From Candidatus Sumerlaeota bacterium (lineage in GTDB: Bacteria; Sumerlaeota; Sumerlaeia; MWCT01; JAUWMI01), in the NCBI GenBank assembly GCA_030613245.1, contig JAUWMI010000026.1:1-63268 (forward strand): a stretch of DNA of 63,268 nucleotides. Direction: 5' to 3'. Below the pieces are notes generated by a model. The model did not search any database and had not been told where the DNA came from. It worked only from the letters and a program-made list of their open reading frames with translations. The position numbers were made by a program, and so were the translations under genes. Positions 17,741 through 42,934 of this stretch are shown piece by piece. The number at the start of each line of letters is the position of its first letter. Within the stretch, counting starts at the first letter, position 1.

Positions 17741-20700
17741 ATGAGAGTGTTTTCGCAAACCGAAGTTATTGAAATAATAAACACCCACCTCGACCCTCAT
17801 ACCTTTATCCAGCATATTAACTACTTTTCAGAAAAGACCCAGGTGCTCGGGACCACGCTAAAGTGCTTCTGTCCGATTCATGGTGAGAAAGCCTTCCGGT
17901 CGCTTATCATTGATACACGCCACAGAACTTACAAGTGTACGATGAAATTTTGTCCTGGCTTCGAAGGGGGAACCCTGATTGATCTCTATGCTCAGTGCGC
18001 CAAGATCCCCCCCCTACAAGCGGCTTTCGCTCTGGTTAAGAACCTCAGTGTCCAGCTCCCCGAGGAGTTGGCCGTACAGCTGGACTCCGGGGGGCTGATG
18101 AGCGCCGAAGAAGCCTATAACAACCAGCAATTCGATGAGGCGAAGGCGCTCGTCGAGCAGGTGCTAGAGGTAAACCCGAACAATATTGACGCGCACGTGC
18201 TCCTTGCCCGCATCTTGGAGGCCCTTGAGCAGCACGCCGATGCTCTTGCAGAATATCAGTTCATTGCTGACCAATATGTAGAATTGAATCTGCTGGACAA
18301 GGCGATCGTTATTCTGGAAAAGCACGTCATACCGGCAAAGGCAAAGGACGAAGGCCTTCTGCTCAAGCTCGCTGAACTTCACACGCGCCAGGGCTCGACA
18401 TTCCAGGCAATTGAGATTTACTGCGATGTCTGCCGCGAGCGAGAAAGTCGTGGGGATGCATCTTCGAATCTGCCCCTCTATCAGAAGATCCTGGCTCTTG
18501 ATCCCCGGCTGGTTGAAATCCGCAGGAAACTTGCCGAAATCTACGAGGCTACCGGCGAGCAACTCTCCGCCTTAGAGGAGTATCTAGAAATTGCCCGGCT
18601 TTGTGAGGCGGAAAACGATACAAGCGAGGCCCTTGCTGCGCTTGAGCACGCCAGAACCATAGACCCGGCCAATCTGCAAGCCCGCGAACTGCTGGCCCCT
18701 CTCTACCTCTCCCTGAACAACCCCCAAGCGGCCCAGGACGAGTATCTCGCCCTCGCGAACACCCACTTGGAACAAGGTAACACTGAGCGCGCCATGGCGT
18801 GCTATAAAGAACTCCTCAAACTTGCACCTGACCTACTGGAAGCACGGGAGGGGCTGATCAACATCCTGGTGCAGAGAAACGAACTCCAGCAAGCTGCACA
18901 GGAATACGTTGAGCTGGCAGCGCTGTACCGCAATCAGGACAATGACGAGAAAGCCATTGATATTCTCCAACAGGCAAAATCGTATGATTTTTCTAACGCG
19001 CCTGTCCGGGAGTTGCTGTGCGAGCTCTATATGAAGGCTCAGAATAGGGATGCGTTGTTTGACGAGTCCATTCAGCTCGCCGAGCTTCTGTGCGAGAGCA
19101 ATCAACATGAAAAAGGACGCCGCATTCTGGAAAATCTGGCAGTGGTCTTTCCGCAAGATCTTGAGAAACGCCGGGCCATTGCCAGAGACTATGAAAAGTA
19201 TCATGAGCCGGGCAAAGCGCTTCAGGAGTATCTCGAGCTTGCGCGGACGGCGCTGGCCGAGTCACAGCTTGCTCTGGTCGAAGAGATCTGCAGCGATGGG
19301 TTGCGACTCGAGGCTGAAAATATCGAGTTCCGGGAAATTCGATTGCAAGCCCTCACGGCTCAGGACAAACATGCCGAGGCCGTGGAGGCGTGCAAGCATC
19401 TGGCTAACCTGTACACAACGGGTGATCAGCGGCAAAAGGCAATAGAACGGCTACGCCAGGCACTTGACATACTTCCCTCAGCTGATACGAGCGTTTATGC
19501 GCAGCTCGCCCAGCTCTATCATGAAAACGGCCAGACTGACGAAGCCATTCAAACACTAAAGACCCTTGCACAGATACAACTTGATGCGGCTGCACTTGAC
19601 GACGCTAACGAAACAGCTGAGAAAATCCTCCAGATTGACCCGTCAAACATCGATGCGCGCCGCACGCTAGCCACCATTGCTCATCAGCAAGGCGACACTG
19701 AGAAAGCCGTTGCCGAGCTCAGCAACCTGGCTGATGCCTGCATCGAGCAGAACCAGTATCCAACAGCTCGTGATACGTTGCGCCAGATTCTGGAGATTGA
19801 TCCCGCGCACCTCCAGGTCATGCGCAAACTCGCCCATCTTATTCTTCAGCACGAATCCGTCGACTCCGCCATTTCTTTACTTCGTCAGGTTATCGGCCTG
19901 CTGAAAAATACTACAACCGAGGACGAAGTAATTCAGGAGTACAAAACCATTCTCAGCCACGCGCCATCATGTATTGAGCTCCGCAAGGACTATGCTGACT
20001 ACCTGAAGGAAATTGGCCGAACCCCCGAAGCCATAGCCGAACTTCTACAGGTGGCGAAGGAACAAAAAGAGACTGTCAAGGATACGGCTCGCGCAATGGA
20101 GGTTTTTGAGCACATTCTCACCCTAGAGCCGAACAATCTGGAGACCCTGCTGGAACTGGCCACCCTGGCCCAGACTACACAGGACATTACTGCGGCCGTT
20201 TCCTATTATCATAAGGCAGCGCGGCTCTGTGGCGACCAGGACAAACACGACCAGGCATATGACCTGTACAACAGAATCTTGCGCCTTGACTCAAACGATG
20301 AGCCTGCACGCAGGGGCATAGCCGAGTATTACATCCATCGCGGTCAAACCGGCAAGGCCATCAAACATCTCACCGCCCTGATAACCAAGCGAAGAAAAGA
20401 GGGGCGTAACAAGGAGAATATTCCTACATATCTTCGGATTCTCGAGCTGGACGAGTCGAACACCTCCGTGCGCGAGCAGCTGGCCGAGCTGTACGAGGAA
20501 ATCGGGGAGCAACAGGCAGCTGCTGAACAGCTTTGTCTCATCGCCACTCAGTATGCTGCTGCACGAAAACTGCGCCGCGCCATTGATGTGCTCACCAAGG
20601 CTGTCAGCACTGATCCAACAAATGAAGCCACACACCGGACTTTGGCCGACTGCTATTTCAAAGACGGCCAGAAGGACAAGGCCAAGGAAACGTATGGCGT

Positions 20701-23700
20701 GCTGGAGAATCTCTACCTCGAGCGCGGTGCCGTGGAACAGGCCGAAGCACTCCTCAAGGAGATTCGAGAACTCGATCCGAGTGATATTAGTATTGGTGAA
20801 CGATTAGGCAAACTCTATGAAACAAAGGGTGATGTGGCTGCTGCGTGCAATGAATATCGCAACGTCAGCCAGCTGTATCTGGACGCCAACCAGCTCGATA
20901 AAGCAATCGAGATCCTGCAGCGGTCACTTGAATTAGATGCCGAGCAAGTGGAAAGCCGCGAGCACCTGGCCCACCTGTTCGAGCAACAAAACAATCTTCC
21001 CGCTGCTGCGGAGCAATACCTGGCTCTAACTCGCATCTTATTCGACCGACAGGAGCCCGACAAGGCGCTGCACATCGGAGGCAAACTATCACAAATCGCT
21101 GCCGACGATACGCAAAAACGCATCCAGCTTGCTGCGCTCTATGCAGCCAACCGGAAAACCAGTCTGGCCTTACAGGAGCTGACCGAAACGGCCCAAGTCG
21201 CCAAGCGGCAAGAGGCATGGGAACAGGTGCTAACAGTTTGCGAAGAGGGGCTGCGCCTGGATGACCAGGCACAGGCCTTGCGCGAAATCAAGATTCAGGC
21301 CCTGCTCAATCTCGGCCAGACGCAAGATGCTATTGCTGAATACATGGGACTTGGCGATGTCTGCTTTAGAAAGAAAGAGTTTGCCCTTGCCGAGCAATAC
21401 TATCGCACCATCATTGAGCTCGATTCCACCCATCTTGAGGCACACACAAAGCTCGTTGACTCCCTGGTGAAACTCAATCGCAAGGCCGACGCAGTTCAGA
21501 ATCTGCTCACCATGGCACGCTTGCATGAGCAGCGCGGCGAACTTTCCGAGGCTATTGCGGCGGATCTAAAGGCCCTGAAATTTGACAACGCACATCTCCA
21601 GGCTCGCGACCACCTTGCACAGCTCTTTATCGCTACTCGCGACTTTCCAAGGGCGCTTTCGGAGCTCAACCGGTTGGCAGAGGCGGCAATTGCACATAAT
21701 GAACCCGACGCAGCCACTCGCTACCTCACCAGCATATTGGAAATCGAACCGCAATCAATTGAGACCCTGCGCACGCTGGCCCGCGTGGTAAGTGAGCATC
21801 AAGGCGTAGCTCAGGCCCGACCCTATTTCACGCAAATACTCGAGCAGGTTAAGGCAAAAGCCAAGCCCAAGGCCGTAATAAAGCAGTACGATTATCTACT
21901 GACGATTGATCCCGAGAACTGGGAGTTGCGCAAAGAGTTTGCTACATATTTGCGGGATCATGATCGCCCGGATCAGGCGATGACAGAGCTGCTAAAGGTG
22001 GCTGAAGCTTACGAGGCAGACGACTCGACCGTGGCCCAGGCCATTGATATCATGCTTCAGGCACAGAACATCGCCCCAGAGGATATGGATGTCCTGACCA
22101 GACTTGCCTCACTGTACGATCGGGCGCAGCAGCCTGATGAGGCCTACCGATTGTACGTCCAGGCAGCAGATGCCTTTTGCAAAGGAAAGCAAGGCGGTAA
22201 GGCTATTCATCTGTATGAACGGGCTGCCGAGCTCGATCCACAAGCCGAGCATCCACTCATCAATCTCGCCCAGCTTTACGATCGCATCTCGCAATTCGAC
22301 AACGCCGTGGCCACGCTTCTGCGCGTTGCATCACTGCGCACAGCAGCCAACCGCACCAGCGAGAATATCCCTATCTATTTGAAGGTACTTCAGCTGAATC
22401 CCGGTCAGCCCGACATCCGCAAGCAGCTCGCTCTTCTCTACGAGGCTGAGAGCCTCATTGACGATGCTGTGAATCAATATGCCCAGTTGGCTGATTCATA
22501 CGAACAACACCAGGATTATTATGCTGCCCTGCAAACCTATGAACACATAAAAGAGCTAAAGCCGAGTGATCTGAGCAGCCGGGAAAAATTGGTTCGTCTC
22601 CATGTCGAGGCTAACAAGCTCCCTGACGCCAAACGTGAACTCAATGAACTCGGAGACCTCTGCCTCAGCTTAAACAAGATCATTGAGGCCGAACGCTATT
22701 TCCGCCGAGTCCAGGAACTCGACCCATCAGATCTCGACATGCGCGAGCGGCTGGGAGCTTTTTACGAGGCGCAGGGCGATAACGCTGCCGCATGTAAGGA
22801 ATACGTCCAGATGGGCTACGCCCTGAGCGAGCAAGAGGACTTCCCAAAGGCTATTGAGCTATTGAATAAGGTAAAGGGCCTAGATCCCGAGAATCTCACA
22901 GCACGGGAGTACGCCATTGAACTGTACGACAAGATGTCGCAACCTGAGAAAGCGGCGGCCGAGGCGCTGGAGCTTAGCCAACGCTACTTTGAAGCAAAAT
23001 TACCCAAAGAAGCAATGCAAAAGTGCAAGCAGGTAAGTGCCTTTGTTCCCCTCGACGTGGATGCTCGTCTGGAAGTCGCCAAGCTCTATGAACAAAATGC
23101 CCTTCTGGACATGGCTCTCGAGGAATATTACCTCCTGGCTAATCGGCTTTTTGAAACCGGACGGTATAGTGAAATCCTGAAGGTCTGCAATATCGGTCTG
23201 GCATTGGACGAAGAGAATGTTCAGCTTCAGTCCCTCAAGGTCAAAGCGTATTTAGTGAACGACGATATTGAAGGAGCGATCCACGAGTACAAGATACTAG
23301 CACCAATTTTTGGAAACCTTGGACGTAAGGAAGAAGAGCAAAAGGTTTACCGTGAAATTATAGCCCTCAGGAGTGACGACATTGATAGTCGTCAACAGCT
23401 GGTGCGCCTTTATCGCGATGCGGAACGTCCAGAAGACGCCATTTCCGAACTGCAACAGCTCATTATGCTGTATAAGAAGGATCAGAATTTTGTGGAGGCA
23501 GCAGCTTGTTATCGAACACTGCTGGAACTGGACCCTGAGAATCTCGAGGCACGCGAAGAGCTGGCAAAACTCCTTACGACCTGCAATCAGCCTGCAGATG
23601 CAATTACAGAGTACTTTACCCTTGCCCGGGTATACGAGTCCCGCACTGACTTTGACAAGGCGCACTTATACTATCAGATGATCCAATCACTGGATCCGGA

Positions 23701-26700
23701 TAATCTGGAGGCACTCAGGGCACGCCGGGAGTTGGCCCGCAAACAGGATCTGACAGATGAATTCTTCTCGCTCTCAACCGCTCTGGCCGCAGTCCTTGAG
23801 TCACAACAAGCATACCAGGACGCCCTGCAAGTTTTGCATGAGGTGATCGCACTGGATCCGACACGCTTTGAGGTCTGGGAACAGGTAGCTCATCTTCATG
23901 AGAAACAGGATAATACCGACGAGGCGGTCGCCGTTTACCAGGAATTAAGCCGCCACTACGAAAAAGCCCAACAGTACGACAAGGCTATTAGTCAGTGTCA
24001 CAAGATTGCTGAGCATCAGCCTGAAAATATCGAGAATCTCTTAATGCTGGCCGCACTGTATCGCCAAACAGCCGCTCTTGAGCTGGCTATTGAATCCTAT
24101 ACCACGGCAATTACTCTGCTCAGAGACCAGGGAGATCTGACCCGTGCAAAGGAGATTGCCGAAAAGCTCCTTGAAGTGGACTCCATGCGGGCAGAATCGA
24201 GAGCACTCCACGCACAGGTGCTTGAAGCCCTTGGCGAGCACGAGCAGGCAGCTGATGCGTATGCTGCGCTGGCCACCCTGCATCAGGATGCGGGTCAGGT
24301 TGATGCAGCCGTAACGGCGCTGGCCACCGCTGTCAAGCTCTCCCCGGATCGCTTGCACGAACGTCTGCGCTATGCAAACCTCCTGCATCAGGCTAATCAG
24401 TTCGTTGACGCGGTGGAGCAATACCTCCAGCTCGCTCAGCAATACGAAGAGCTTGGGCAACTTGCCGATGCTGCAAGCTGTTGTCAGAATGTCCTTAAAA
24501 TCGAGTCGGACAACCTCACTGCTCACCAGCACCTTGCCCGTCTCTATAGCCAGACAGAATGCGCCGACCGTGCCAAAGAGGAATTGGAATGGCTGGGTGA
24601 GTATTCTGTTAACAACGAGGAATACGAGCGAGCGGAACAATACCTTCTCGAGGCCTTACAGCTAAAGATCGGCGAGCGGTCGTTACGGGAAAAACTCGCC
24701 ACCCTCTATAGCAAACAGGAGAAGAAAGACGATGCTATCGAGCAATTCCTTAAAATCACTGAATTGGCGATTCTGGAGGACAATCTAGAAAATGCCCTTT
24801 CCGCCCTGGAGCGCGCCCGCGATCTCTCCGGTACCAATACCGAGATTCGCAAGCATCTGGCCGAAATCTATGGCATTCGCGGCGAAAACGAAAAAGCCAA
24901 AGCCGAGATTATCTATATCATTGATAGCTACCTCGAACACGGGCTGGTTGAAGAAGCACAGACACTGAGCAAGTCCCTACTGAATAAGGAGCCGGACAAT
25001 TGGCAGCTGCGCGAACAGGTCGCAGGGCTATTTGAACACCACAGTATTCCAGAGCTGGCTGCTGCCCACTACATCGAAATTGCCAGATTCCATATGGCTG
25101 GCGAATCCTTTACCCAGGTTATCCACTACGCAAAACAGGCCCTTTCATTAACCCCCAACGATTTTGCTGTCCGAGAACTCCTCATCAAGACCCTGATTCA
25201 AACCGGCCAACAGGCAGAGGCCTACGAGCAGCTTACCCACCTCAGCGAACAGTACGGAGGCCAAGGTGCCTACGAAAAGGCAATCGAAACCCTGAATGCA
25301 ATGTGCGACATTGACCCCCGAAATCCATACCCACACGAAAAGCTTGCCACCTTCTACTCTTTGACCAATCAGGAAGACAAGGCACACACGGAACTCAACC
25401 TGCTAGCCGACATCTATCTTGATGATCAGCAGCCCGAAGAAGCACTGCGTACGCTGAAATCTCTTTTGGCCAAGCAACCCGACGACGTGAATATTTGGCG
25501 AAAATACATTGATACCAGCGCACAGCTGAAATGCGAGACCGAATTGCTCGGCGATTATATGAAATTGGCTAACGTCCTCATTGCCAAAGGTGCGGTTCTG
25601 GAAGCAACACAAACGTTTGAAACTATGCTCAGAATCGCCCCGCAGGACGCCGAGCTCCTGGACAAGTTCGTCAATTTTCTCATTGACCAGGGCCAATCTA
25701 CGCGGGCAATCAGGGAAGTCTTTGGCCTGGCGGATATTTATAATGCCAACGGACAGCATAAGCAGGCTGCCCGGATGCTTATTAAGGTGCAAGAACTCTC
25801 CCGCGAAGACCCTGACATACATTGTAAATTGGGCGAGACTTACCTCTTACTGAATGCAAAAGGCATGGCCATCGAACATTTTCTCGAAGCCGTTTCTCTC
25901 TATAAGGTGGCCAATGAAAAGCCGCCACAGATTGATCTCCTCAAACGAATCATCGAGATAGATCCCAACAATGTGAATGTGCGCAACCAGCTGATAGAGA
26001 TCTTCCTCTCTACCGATCAGGTGGAAGAAGCAGTGGAACAATCCATGCAAATTGCGGATCTCTACGTACAACGCGATTTGCTGGATCTGGCGGAGAAAGA
26101 GTATCGAAGAATCATTTCGATTGATCCAGAAAACCTCACGGCGCTTAATTCTCTCGCAGCCACGCATCTCCAGATCGGTATGGATGAAGACGTAGCACGG
26201 GATTATATCATGCTGGCGGAGCTCTACCTGAAGAAGGGAGCTTTGCAGGATGCGATTAAGTATTTCAAGAAAGGCTTGTCACTCGATCCACAGAATATCA
26301 AAGCGCACCGCGCCTACATTGATGCCTACTTACAGTTCGGGGTGGAGAAAGATCTTGTTGAAGACTATCTTGTGTTAGCTGATCTCCTTCTGGATCAACA
26401 TAACCTCGACGGCGCGAGAAGAATCTATATGCAGATTCTTGCTCTGGATCCAGAACACGCCATTGCTAAAGCAAAGTTACACGAAACCGATAAGCTCCTC
26501 ACCCCACATGAGGAAGATCTCGATTACATTACCCCTCGTCCCGCCACGCCGCAGGAAAAGCCAGTATCGCCTGATAAAGAAGCAATCCCCTCTGCTCAGG
26601 CTCAACCCTCTCTGGAAGAAACCATTGACACGTATCAGAATATTCTCCAGATGAACCCGGCAAACGCCCAGATTCGCATCAAACTGGCGGACCTTTATGA

Positions 26701-26980
26701 ACAAATCGGACGCGAGGAGGATGCATGCAGAGAATTAGATCAGGCTAGTGAAATTCTGATCGGGAAGGGAGAATTGGAGAAAAGCATTTTGATTTGCGAA
26801 CGCCTGATAGCGCTTCGACCTGCTGATGGAAACGTGCGTAACCGACTGGCAAAGGCAATCTTGCAGCGCGACTCGTTCAAAGCTATCGAGAGCGCCATTG
26901 GTGCGTACGAGACTGACCACCCGGATCGCCCAAAACCGACCAACAACAAGCCCTCCGAGTCCGAGCGAACCAGCACTTAG
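17741..26980 (+). CDS. Giant CHC2-type zinc finger plus TPR solenoid protein
   Basis: A 3079-residue protein starting at ATG 17741, with AAAGGA upstream. The first 110 residues resemble the DnaG primase CHC2 zinc finger: 'CFCPIHGEK' gives a Cys-x2-His pair and 'YKCTMKFCPGFEGGTLIDLY' gives a Cys-x4-Cys pair, where DnaG has Cys-x2-Cys. The TOPRIM catalytic domain of primase is absent. The rest is an all-helical solenoid. I count about 54 turns of the 'LELDPENLEA' type, about 54-55 residues apart, up to a hydrophilic tail after residue 3050. There is no signal peptide or membrane helix, so it is probably cytoplasmic. The finger may bind nucleic acid and the solenoid proteins; its role is unknown. 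The 9.2-kb frame is intact. Confidence 0.85.
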   Translation: MRVFSQTEVIEIINTHLDPHTFIQHINYFSEKTQVLGTTLKCFCPIHGEKAFRSLIIDTRHRTYKCTMKFCPGFEGGTLIDLYAQCAKIPPLQAAFALVKNLSVQLPEELAVQLDSGGLMSAEEAYNNQQFDEAKALVEQVLEVNPNNIDAHVLLARILEALEQHADALAEYQFIADQYVELNLLDKAIVILEKHVIPAKAKDEGLLLKLAELHTRQGSTFQAIEIYCDVCRERESRGDASSNLPLYQKILALDPRLVEIRRKLAEIYEATGEQLSALEEYLEIARLCEAENDTSEALAALEHARTIDPANLQARELLAPLYLSLNNPQAAQDEYLALANTHLEQGNTERAMACYKELLKLAPDLLEAREGLINILVQRNELQQAAQEYVELAALYRNQDNDEKAIDILQQAKSYDFSNAPVRELLCELYMKAQNRDALFDESIQLAELLCESNQHEKGRRILENLAVVFPQDLEKRRAIARDYEKYHEPGKALQEYLELARTALAESQLALVEEICSDGLRLEAENIEFREIRLQALTAQDKHAEAVEACKHLANLYTTGDQRQKAIERLRQALDILPSADTSVYAQLAQLYHENGQTDEAIQTLKTLAQIQLDAAALDDANETAEKILQIDPSNIDARRTLATIAHQQGDTEKAVAELSNLADACIEQNQYPTARDTLRQILEIDPAHLQVMRKLAHLILQHESVDSAISLLRQVIGLLKNTTTEDEVIQEYKTILSHAPSCIELRKDYADYLKEIGRTPEAIAELLQVAKEQKETVKDTARAMEVFEHILTLEPNNLETLLELATLAQTTQDITAAVSYYHKAARLCGDQDKHDQAYDLYNRILRLDSNDEPARRGIAEYYIHRGQTGKAIKHLTALITKRRKEGRNKENIPTYLRILELDESNTSVREQLAELYEEIGEQQAAAEQLCLIATQYAAARKLRRAIDVLTKAVSTDPTNEATHRTLADCYFKDGQKDKAKETYGVLENLYLERGAVEQAEALLKEIRELDPSDISIGERLGKLYETKGDVAAACNEYRNVSQLYLDANQLDKAIEILQRSLELDAEQVESREHLAHLFEQQNNLPAAAEQYLALTRILFDRQEPDKALHIGGKLSQIAADDTQKRIQLAALYAANRKTSLALQELTETAQVAKRQEAWEQVLTVCEEGLRLDDQAQALREIKIQALLNLGQTQDAIAEYMGLGDVCFRKKEFALAEQYYRTIIELDSTHLEAHTKLVDSLVKLNRKADAVQNLLTMARLHEQRGELSEAIAADLKALKFDNAHLQARDHLAQLFIATRDFPRALSELNRLAEAAIAHNEPDAATRYLTSILEIEPQSIETLRTLARVVSEHQGVAQARPYFTQILEQVKAKAKPKAVIKQYDYLLTIDPENWELRKEFATYLRDHDRPDQAMTELLKVAEAYEADDSTVAQAIDIMLQAQNIAPEDMDVLTRLASLYDRAQQPDEAYRLYVQAADAFCKGKQGGKAIHLYERAAELDPQAEHPLINLAQLYDRISQFDNAVATLLRVASLRTAANRTSENIPIYLKVLQLNPGQPDIRKQLALLYEAESLIDDAVNQYAQLADSYEQHQDYYAALQTYEHIKELKPSDLSSREKLVRLHVEANKLPDAKRELNELGDLCLSLNKIIEAERYFRRVQELDPSDLDMRERLGAFYEAQGDNAAACKEYVQMGYALSEQEDFPKAIELLNKVKGLDPENLTAREYAIELYDKMSQPEKAAAEALELSQRYFEAKLPKEAMQKCKQVSAFVPLDVDARLEVAKLYEQNALLDMALEEYYLLANRLFETGRYSEILKVCNIGLALDEENVQLQSLKVKAYLVNDDIEGAIHEYKILAPIFGNLGRKEEEQKVYREIIALRSDDIDSRQQLVRLYRDAERPEDAISELQQLIMLYKKDQNFVEAAACYRTLLELDPENLEAREELAKLLTTCNQPADAITEYFTLARVYESRTDFDKAHLYYQMIQSLDPDNLEALRARRELARKQDLTDEFFSLSTALAAVLESQQAYQDALQVLHEVIALDPTRFEVWEQVAHLHEKQDNTDEAVAVYQELSRHYEKAQQYDKAISQCHKIAEHQPENIENLLMLAALYRQTAALELAIESYTTAITLLRDQGDLTRAKEIAEKLLEVDSMRAESRALHAQVLEALGEHEQAADAYAALATLHQDAGQVDAAVTALATAVKLSPDRLHERLRYANLLHQANQFVDAVEQYLQLAQQYEELGQLADAASCCQNVLKIESDNLTAHQHLARLYSQTECADRAKEELEWLGEYSVNNEEYERAEQYLLEALQLKIGERSLREKLATLYSKQEKKDDAIEQFLKITELAILEDNLENALSALERARDLSGTNTEIRKHLAEIYGIRGENEKAKAEIIYIIDSYLEHGLVEEAQTLSKSLLNKEPDNWQLREQVAGLFEHHSIPELAAAHYIEIARFHMAGESFTQVIHYAKQALSLTPNDFAVRELLIKTLIQTGQQAEAYEQLTHLSEQYGGQGAYEKAIETLNAMCDIDPRNPYPHEKLATFYSLTNQEDKAHTELNLLADIYLDDQQPEEALRTLKSLLAKQPDDVNIWRKYIDTSAQLKCETELLGDYMKLANVLIAKGAVLEATQTFETMLRIAPQDAELLDKFVNFLIDQGQSTRAIREVFGLADIYNANGQHKQAARMLIKVQELSREDPDIHCKLGETYLLLNAKGMAIEHFLEAVSLYKVANEKPPQIDLLKRIIEIDPNNVNVRNQLIEIFLSTDQVEEAVEQSMQIADLYVQRDLLDLAEKEYRRIISIDPENLTALNSLAATHLQIGMDEDVARDYIMLAELYLKKGALQDAIKYFKKGLSLDPQNIKAHRAYIDAYLQFGVEKDLVEDYLVLADLLLDQHNLDGARRIYMQILALDPEHAIAKAKLHETDKLLTPHEEDLDYITPRPATPQEKPVSPDKEAIPSAQAQPSLEETIDTYQNILQMNPANAQIRIKLADLYEQIGREEDACRELDQASEILIGKGELEKSILICERLIALRPADGNVRNRLAKAILQRDSFKAIESAIGAYETDHPDRPKPTNNKPSESERTST

Positions 26981-27116
26981 GCCTTGATGCAAACCCGCAA
27001 AAGTCTCTTCTGCTTGCTTAATTATGCGGTAATTGTGCCATAATTCTTCCGGTCAAAATTCAATACTTATAAAAGCTTTAAATAGAATCTAAAACAACAC
27101 ACCGAACTAAACAGAT

Positions 27117-27152
27117 GAACACGAATGACACGAATGGACGAATTGCACGAAT
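27117..27152. repeat. Left 36-bp inverted repeat of the GxxExxY cassette
   Basis: Made of spaced ACGAAT words (GAACACGAATGACACGAATG and onward). It matches the reverse complement of 27528-27563 at 32 of 36 positions with no gaps. It ends 3 bases before the stop codon of the enclosed gene. Confidence 0.85.
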
Positions 27153-27155
27153 ATT

Positions 27156-27566
27156 TTAGTTTACTATTCGTCTGTATATTACCTTCTTGCTGCCAAAGTT
27201 TACCAGTATTCCTAGCTTCATTCCAGCAGCTTTTAAATAAGAAAGTAGCTGTGCCTCAAATATATTGCTTAGCTCCGATACTGCCTTAAGTTCCAAAATA
27301 ATTTTGTTCTCCAAAACCAGATCCAACCTGTATTCCCCTATCTTTTCACCCTTATAGTAAACCTCTACCAATTTCTGTCTTTCATACCCTATGCCTCTAT
27401 CCCTCAACTCCTTTGACAGAGCCTCCTCATATATCTTTTCTGAATATCCTGGACCTAAAATATTGTGAACCTCGAAGCATGCTTCAATTATCTTGAAGGA
27501 CAACTCTTTATATACCACCTTCTCTTCATTCGTGCCATTCGTATATTCGTGTAATTCGTGTTCCAC
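27156..27566 (-). CDS. GxxExxY protein, PD-(D/E)XK nuclease-like
   Basis: A 136-residue protein with the family signature G40-x2-E43-x2-Y46 after 'EVHNILGPG'. Further on are D82, E92 and K94 in 'YRLDLVLENKIILELKAV', the D...ExK pattern of PD-(D/E)XK nucleases, and 'EAQLLSYLKAAG' (Q106, Y110), which recalls the QxxxY motif of RecB/Cas4-type nucleases. The function of the family is unknown. The start is GTG 27566, with AGGTG just upstream. The first 14 residues (EHELHEYTNGTNE) are the translation of the flanking repeat, so the folded domain begins near residue 20. Its local base composition looks more AT-rich than its neighbours. Confidence 0.85.
   Translation of the reverse strand: MEHELHEYTNGTNEEKVVYKELSFKIIEACFEVHNILGPGYSEKIYEEALSKELRDRGIGYERQKLVEVYYKGEKIGEYRLDLVLENKIILELKAVSELSNIFEAQLLSYLKAAGMKLGILVNFGSKKVIYRRIVN
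27528..27563. repeat. Right 36-bp inverted repeat of the GxxExxY cassette
   Basis: Reverse-complement partner of 27117-27152 (32 of 36 positions). It lies inside the 5' end of the enclosed gene and is translated as its N-terminus. Confidence 0.85.
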
Positions 27567-27703
27567 TTTTCACCTAGTGTATTGGCTGAAGAGTCAAGAT
27601 TTACAATGTTTGATTTAATCTTGAAATTGTGTTCAATAAAAATGCGTAGCTCAAAGTGTATGCCCTAATGGAAAAGAACTGGTGCCATGGCAGGGAGGAG
27701 CCC

Positions 27704-28243
27704 TCATTTTTGCTCCAATATCTTCCCATATTGAAAAAGATTGCCCGCCTGGTAGATATCCATTTGCACCTGGCTGAATGGCCGCGCTTGAATCGAGCGC
27801 TCCTCCTCACCGAGCACGCGAATCCCGCCCGATGCTACATCGGCTTCAATCTGATTGCCACTCTTCAGGTTTGCCTCAGCCAGCTCCTCACACTCAACTA
27901 TGGGAAACCCCGAATTAATTGCATTGCGCTTATAAATGGCACCGAATGACTCACCGAGCAGCAAGACAATCCCCAGCGACGCAAAACAATCCACGGCCTG
28001 TTGGCGTGAAGACCCTGCCCCGAAGTTCTTTCCCACCATCACAATATCACCCGGCTGCGTCTTTGAGGGAAAATCCTCCCACCCACGCAGATTTCCGAAG
28101 GAGAATTTCCCCATTTCTCGAATATCAGTAACCGCTAGATGTGCATTGTGATAAATTTGATCCGTATCTATATCGTCAATTAACCGCCCTTGCTTATCCA
28201 CAATCATCCAGATCCGTCCCTGTATTACTGTTTCTCGTCCCAT
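27704..28243 (-). CDS. leuD: 3-isopropylmalate dehydratase small subunit
   Basis: A 179-residue swivelling-domain subunit of the aconitase superfamily: 'DDIDTDQIYHNAHL' near the N-terminus, 'VGKNFGAGSSRQQAVDCFAS' (the substrate-binding GSSR loop), 'FGAIYKRNAINSGFPIVEC'. With the large subunit it isomerises 2-isopropylmalate to 3-isopropylmalate in leucine synthesis. GAGGAG lies 6 bases before the ATG. It follows the large-subunit gene by 49 bases on the same strand. Related pairs serve homoaconitase or dimethylmalate reactions, so the exact substrate is likely but not proven. Confidence 0.85.
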   Translation of the reverse strand: MGRETVIQGRIWMIVDKQGRLIDDIDTDQIYHNAHLAVTDIREMGKFSFGNLRGWEDFPSKTQPGDIVMVGKNFGAGSSRQQAVDCFASLGIVLLLGESFGAIYKRNAINSGFPIVECEELAEANLKSGNQIEADVASGGIRVLGEEERSIQARPFSQVQMDIYQAGNLFQYGKILEQK

Positions 28244-42811: not shown

Positions 42812-42934
42812 GCCACGGAGACACAGAGTATCGAATTGCAAATTGAAAATTGTAAATTGGAAAATGCAAATTGCAAATTTAAGAATTTACACTTAAAGTT
42901 TTTTCCCTTTTGTTAATCTCTGTGCCTCTGTGGC
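42812..42934. repeat. Dispersed hairpin-ended repeat, copy 2 (octamer-word family)
   Basis: GCCACGGAGACACAGAG at the left and CTCTGTGCCTCTGTGGC at the right; inside is AAATTG-word DNA as in the copies at 634 and 47658. Confidence 0.85.

Follow-up and report, generated by a model that had tools for sequence, protein, structure and literature searches.

The GxxExxY gene of the window and the two inverted repeats that frame it form one compact unit, and the mobility of gene and arms as a unit is well supported, since such units are duplicated, polymorphic in presence, and missing as a block at orthologous sites. The window is the whole stretch of DNA analysed here, a contig of 63,268 nucleotides from a Candidatus Sumerlaeota bacterium. 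I put the probability at about 60% that the unit belongs to a selfish system resembling REP/REPIN-RAYT, with a Cas4/RecB-like predicted nuclease in place of the HUH transposase; the nuclease would then recognise short tandem words in the arms and drive their spread. GxxExxY is a common annotated family for which the open-access sources searched give no function, and on this reading the family, whose genes are framed in three quarters or more of cases, would cease to be an orphan and become the enzyme behind a widespread selfish system. The element carries a known protein family, yet it departs from the defining features of REPIN-RAYT systems, 23S intervening sequences and insertion sequences.

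The features of the element and its neighbours are listed in the table. The initial annotation described a gene framed by ungapped 36-bp inverted repeats, and the two arms, aligned without gaps, indeed agree in 32 of their 36 bases; extended to 27110-27152 and 27528-27570 they are 84% complementary. A sliding test of the window at the same spacing (2472 starts) gave a mean of 7.4 and values below 18 everywhere else, while this locus reached 30. Each arm consists of four tandem copies of ACGAAT at a spacing of 8-9 nt, a structure that the initial annotation had not mentioned. The GTG start lies at the outer edge of the 5' arm and the first codons are read through that repeat, as had been claimed, with codons 2-13 lying inside it. 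The stop codon had been said to touch the other repeat; the adjacency is nearly right, but 3 nt separate the stop from the 3' arm. The element is intergenic, between convergent TPR-like and LeuD-like genes. The relatives compared included no member of the window's own genus or family; the best relative of the LeuD-like gene (62%, in G003) has other neighbours, and the TPR-like ORF opens with a CHC2-zinc-finger-like stretch by my own reading.

Table. Positions of the GxxExxY element and its neighbours in the window, and key residues of the encoded protein.
Feature	Position	Strand	Remarks
Whole unit	27116..27577	-	462 bp; second copy in same genome
GxxExxY gene	27156..27566	-	GTG start at 27566; 136 aa
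5' arm (relative to gene)	27528..27563	-	four ACGAAT words; minus-strand reading GAACACGAATTACACGAATATACGAATGGCACGAAT
3' arm	27117..27152	+	GAACACGAATGACACGAATGGACGAATTGCACGAAT; inverted copy of 5' arm
Extra 14 bp outside 5' arm	27564..27577	-	CTAGGTGAAAAGTG; present in second genomic copy too
Left neighbour, TPR-repeat-like ORF	17741..26980	+	3079 aa; own reading of sequence
Right neighbour, isopropylmalate-isomerase small-subunit (LeuD)-like ORF	27704..28243	-	own reading of sequence
Key residues of GxxExxY protein	E43, Y46, D82, E92xK94, Q106xxxY110		

The suggestion that gene and repeats travel together as a minimal mobile element was supported by a second copy in the same genome (G000, Sumerlaeota) and by element-free orthologous sites of related elements, described below. 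The second copy (G000:C42:57546-58013) matches the window's unit without gaps and with 18 mismatches, at 96.1% identity over 462 bp, and the flanks of the two copies are unrelated. On one side the duplication stops with the outer end of an arm, and on the other it runs 14 bp past the arm; since these 14 bp recur in the second copy, the unit extends slightly beyond the 5' arm. A dN/dS of 0.14 between the two copies indicates that the protein was under constraint, and a further pair, C59/C88, gave 0.16. G000 holds seven GxxExxY genes, and inverted tandem-word repeats or hairpins were found by eye around all seven, several copies being flanked by complete hairpins. By eye, the words around these genes vary (ACGAAT, CACAGAG, AACAAGATT, CACAAAG, AGGATNNAT), and the ACGAAT hairpins of this genome are head-inward. 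Separately, contigs C22 and C37 of G000 (L082 and L083) carry tandem clusters in which CTTCGTG alternates with AATCTTGT hairpins in units of ~220 bp, and the window itself has a lone three-word array at 761-783 on the minus strand (CACGGAGACACAGAGTCACAGAG), probably a gene-less arm.

The window protein matches TIGR04256 (1.9e-42) and PF13366 PDDEXK_3 (1.4e-40), above the curated cut-offs (144 bits vs 35 and 139 vs 22, respectively), and TIGR04256 is its sole NCBIfam match. The D...ExK and QxxxY pattern attributed to it is present, with the residues kept in 138-156 of 158 homologues. A search of solved structures by sequence returned no significant relative, and fold comparison was therefore used instead. 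The AlphaFold2 model (pLDDT 91.8), compared with the PDB, placed SSO0001 (4ic1) at the top, which I take to be a Cas4-family nuclease, followed by lambda-type exonucleases, MGME1 and AddAB. On the strength of this model, the window protein has a PD-(D/E)XK fold nearest to Cas4/RecB nucleases and is a predicted nuclease. It shares with the Cas4/RecB-type PD-(D/E)XK nucleases (SSO0001, 4ic1) the fold and the D...ExK...QxxxY motif. Unlike Cas4, it is only 136 aa long, lies within repeat arms, and is encoded away from cas genes, next to TPR-like and LeuD-like neighbours; it has a single cysteine in its full length and thus no Cas4-type four-cysteine iron-sulphur cluster.

Whether inverted ends track the gene boundaries in homologues was a check proposed with the initial annotation, and they mostly do. 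Arms, defined by a score of 14 or more, frame 59 of 79 GxxExxY genes from 39 genomes of the window's class plus two outside it, compared with 8.8% of mismatched pairings and 4 of 134 neighbouring genes. Framing was likewise found at 63 of 79 usable loci across many phyla (KSB1, Planctomycetota, Verrucomicrobiota, Chlamydiota, Chloroflexi, Acidobacteriota, Bacteroidota, Proteobacteria, and others); these loci were gathered with a single-protein query and are biased to one clade that shares the word CGCARAG across phyla, which is why 29% of mismatched pairings also scored there. In the Geothrix fermentans DSM 14018 isolate and the complete Planctomycetales ZRK34 chromosome, 14 of 15 genes are framed, and words differ within one genome of this set. 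The window comes from a draft genome, which would leave room for chance or an assembly artefact, but the same framing in an isolate, in a complete chromosome and in many phyla argues strongly against it, as do the mismatched-pair and control-gene tests, and I regard this explanation as hardly credible. Against the selfish-system reading, some 20-25% of GxxExxY genes have no recognisable arms. Neither pattern named beforehand as contrary to mobility, namely homologues that have conserved neighbours and lack inverted repeats, or orthologous sites that are never empty in close relatives, was found. Phage records contained no GxxExxY match and a viral-contig scan with a Prevotella protein gave none, while plasmid records yielded 7 matches, all distant.

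An arm is a discrete repeat of ~25-40 bp, composed of a TT(A/C)ACC-type head followed by a word array. In the array, a word of ~6-7 nt that is specific to the element is repeated three or four times in tandem at a spacing of 8-11 nt, and common words follow CRCNNAG or CRCNNAT. The best word period of GxxExxY arms is 8-11 in all 122 elements, and in 99 of these the words are arranged head-outward. Words vary among elements (CACGAAT, CGCAGAG, CACCAAG, and others) and are shared by both arms of one element. Between genomes, more similar proteins have more similar arm words (0 of 2000 permutations), and in 126 and 115 of 148 pairs an element's two arms are more alike than the corresponding arms of its relatives; in both tests, pairs and genomes are not phylogenetically independent and host relatedness is only partly controlled. 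If each enzyme is paired with its word, the concerted change of words in both arms would follow.

The arms are also dispersed without the gene. Some stand singly, others form hairpin pairs with their heads pointing outward or inward, and others again make up the head-outward pairs that enclose a GxxExxY gene; gene-less close pairs listed in one genome (G006) are, by eye, head-outward as in gene-bearing units. Across 39 genomes there are 1502 three-word arrays, vs 133 for a reversed control pattern, and genomes with more GxxExxY genes tend to have more arrays (rho 0.74; partial correlation 0.63 with four-helix-bundle gene number held constant); here too the genomes are not phylogenetically independent. 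G007, a single-contig genome, and G020 contain 22 and 16 arrays, respectively, and no GxxExxY gene; these arrays may be relics, or may belong to another mover.

A second gene family is found in similar surroundings. Of 24 free-standing four-helix-bundle genes (TIGR02436, S23/IVP-type; L189-L218) of the window's class, 21 lie between inverted tandem words (AGTTCTG, GGATGAG, AGACAGT, GATTGCC, and others), with an arm period of 7 in 18 of the 21 and of 8 in the other 3. Periods of 7 vs 8-11 indicate that each gene family keeps its own kind of end. The window has, at 42833-42868, tandem AAATTG words with a period of 7 (CAAATTGAAAATTGTAAATTGG) that resemble an arm of the four-helix-bundle type.

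These parallel units leave room for a process that the host or a different element drives, such as replication slippage, template switching, or an IS transposase acting in trans, and that would move the arms, with GxxExxY and the four-helix-bundle protein as passengers or arm-binders that gain by travelling. Two unrelated protein families in similar arm-gene-arm units, one of them without a nuclease, would fit this explanation, as would the common solo arms and the arrays in G007 and G020. However, the arm period splits the two families almost completely, the words follow protein similarity, array number follows GxxExxY number with the four-helix-bundle number held, and the catalytic residues of GxxExxY are conserved; I therefore consider a host-driven origin unlikely. 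For the preferred nuclease-driven system, a possible mechanism is that the GxxExxY nuclease recognises its own word array, either in one folded arm or in two paired arms, and cuts at this place or where the DNA is extruded or being replicated. Repair or strand transfer could then place a copy of the unit in an intergenic region, in some cases between convergent genes, and a gene-less arm pair might be copied in trans in the same way.

Orthologous sites without the element, the second check that had been proposed, were seen for related elements in Prevotella and Sumerlaeota. At the Prevotella site, L286 has a full unit, G106 only a solo arm, and G174 and G145 are empty. The Sumerlaeota site lies between two convergent genes; G023 carries the full unit there (TTCACCACGGAG...gene...CTCCGTGGTGAA), and its genus mate G030 lacks it, with the same genes nearly abutting. 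The right-hand homology of this comparison is weak (59%, E 4.5e-10). Elsewhere in G023 lie about ten further arms with the unit's word, and none were found when G030 was queried for arms with that word. Two Prevotella copies in one genome are 94% identical over 617 bp. Counting against mobility, some elements keep the same place in related species. No target duplication was evident at the compared Prevotella and Sumerlaeota sites, whose flanks are only 59-83% alike. Two further observations were made in Prevotella: in L300 321-1240 (G106), CACAGAAAT-type arms stand on either side of a GxxExxY gene as direct rather than inverted repeats and at some distance, and L278 4389-4495 is a separate dispersed repeat of ~100 bp, up to 95% identical, which is found in many Prevotella genomes and lies near one element.

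The solo arm in G106, exactly at the site of the gene-bearing L286 unit, raises a special form of the nuclease model, in which the enzyme homes: it would cut resident solo arms or hairpins that carry its word, and a gene-bearing copy would serve as the repair template, inserting the gene with the arms as homology. The complete hairpins that flank several G000 copies are also consistent with homing. Against it, the G106 solo arm carries another word than the L286 unit (CACAGAAAT vs CACAGATT), and the G030, G174, and G145 sites have no arm at all, which argues that insertion needs no resident arm, unless one was lost, and that homing into resident arms is not the sole route. I consider homing as the general explanation very unlikely.

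The selfish system proposed here, in which the nuclease acts on its own words, is closest in organisation to REP/REPIN-RAYT. There, dispersed extragenic repeats occur as singlets and as hairpin-forming inverted doublets beside a dedicated single-gene nuclease, and the repeat type pairs with the protein type (Bertels and Rainey, 2011; PMC3116915). GxxExxY arms are likewise dispersed as singlets and inverted doublets and tied to a gene. The gene, however, encodes a Cas4/RecB-like PD-(D/E)XK protein and not a RAYT, which is an HUH Tyr transposase; the arm is a tandem direct array of a variable word where a REP is one short imperfect palindrome; and, unlike in REPIN-RAYT, the gene-bearing units themselves occur as insertions. 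With insertion sequences and MITEs the units share terminal inverted repeats, an internal gene, and gene-less short derivatives, and, as with insertion sequences, related elements are present or absent at orthologous sites. In contrast to insertion sequences there is no transposase, the sole gene being a PD-(D/E)XK family member, and in contrast to both IS and MITEs the ends differ in sequence between copies and no target duplication was seen at the compared sites with their diverged flanks. A simple transposon with fixed terminal inverted repeats does not fit tandem-word ends that vary among elements, dispersed solo arms and the lack of a visible target duplication. A search of open-licence PubMed Central papers, with subscription papers and preprints outside its scope, found no description of GxxExxY repeat elements.

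The third comparison concerns 23S intervening sequences. That of Coxiella is reported to have tandem heptamers (GACAGAT) before an ORF encoding the S23 four-helix-bundle protein; at ~430 bp, with one small ORF within inverted repeats, it is described as selfish and its mobility is suspected, and RNase III excises such sequences as stems (PMC4990558). The GxxExxY unit is similar in being a single ORF in inverted repeats with tandem short words. It differs in lying between genes, outside 23S rRNA, in encoding a nuclease fold and no four-helix-bundle S23 protein, and in a word period of 8-11 where the intervening sequence has heptamers. The excision by RNase III, and the position of two of the examined units (window and G023) between convergent genes, would also suit arms that are regulatory or RNA features of a resident gene, such as terminators or RNase III-type stems, with apparent mobility reflecting ordinary gene gain and loss. 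Yet arms and gene arrive and leave together, gene-less arms are dispersed in large numbers and words differ among elements of one genome, all of which makes this account highly improbable.

More tentatively, and in my estimate somewhat short of even odds, these units may represent an unrecognised class of mobile DNA spanning many phyla, in which a minimal Cas4/RecB-like nuclease mobiliser reads a tandem word that is repeatedly re-specified at both ends in concert, with the four-helix-bundle units and intervening sequences as a sister class with heptamer words. The nuclease-driven reading, if true, would account for intergenic word repeats of a kind counted at up to some two hundred copies per genome and would connect them with the mobility of 23S intervening sequences, which has long lacked an explanation. 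It would also provide a natural set of nuclease-word pairs in which changes in DNA recognition could be studied.
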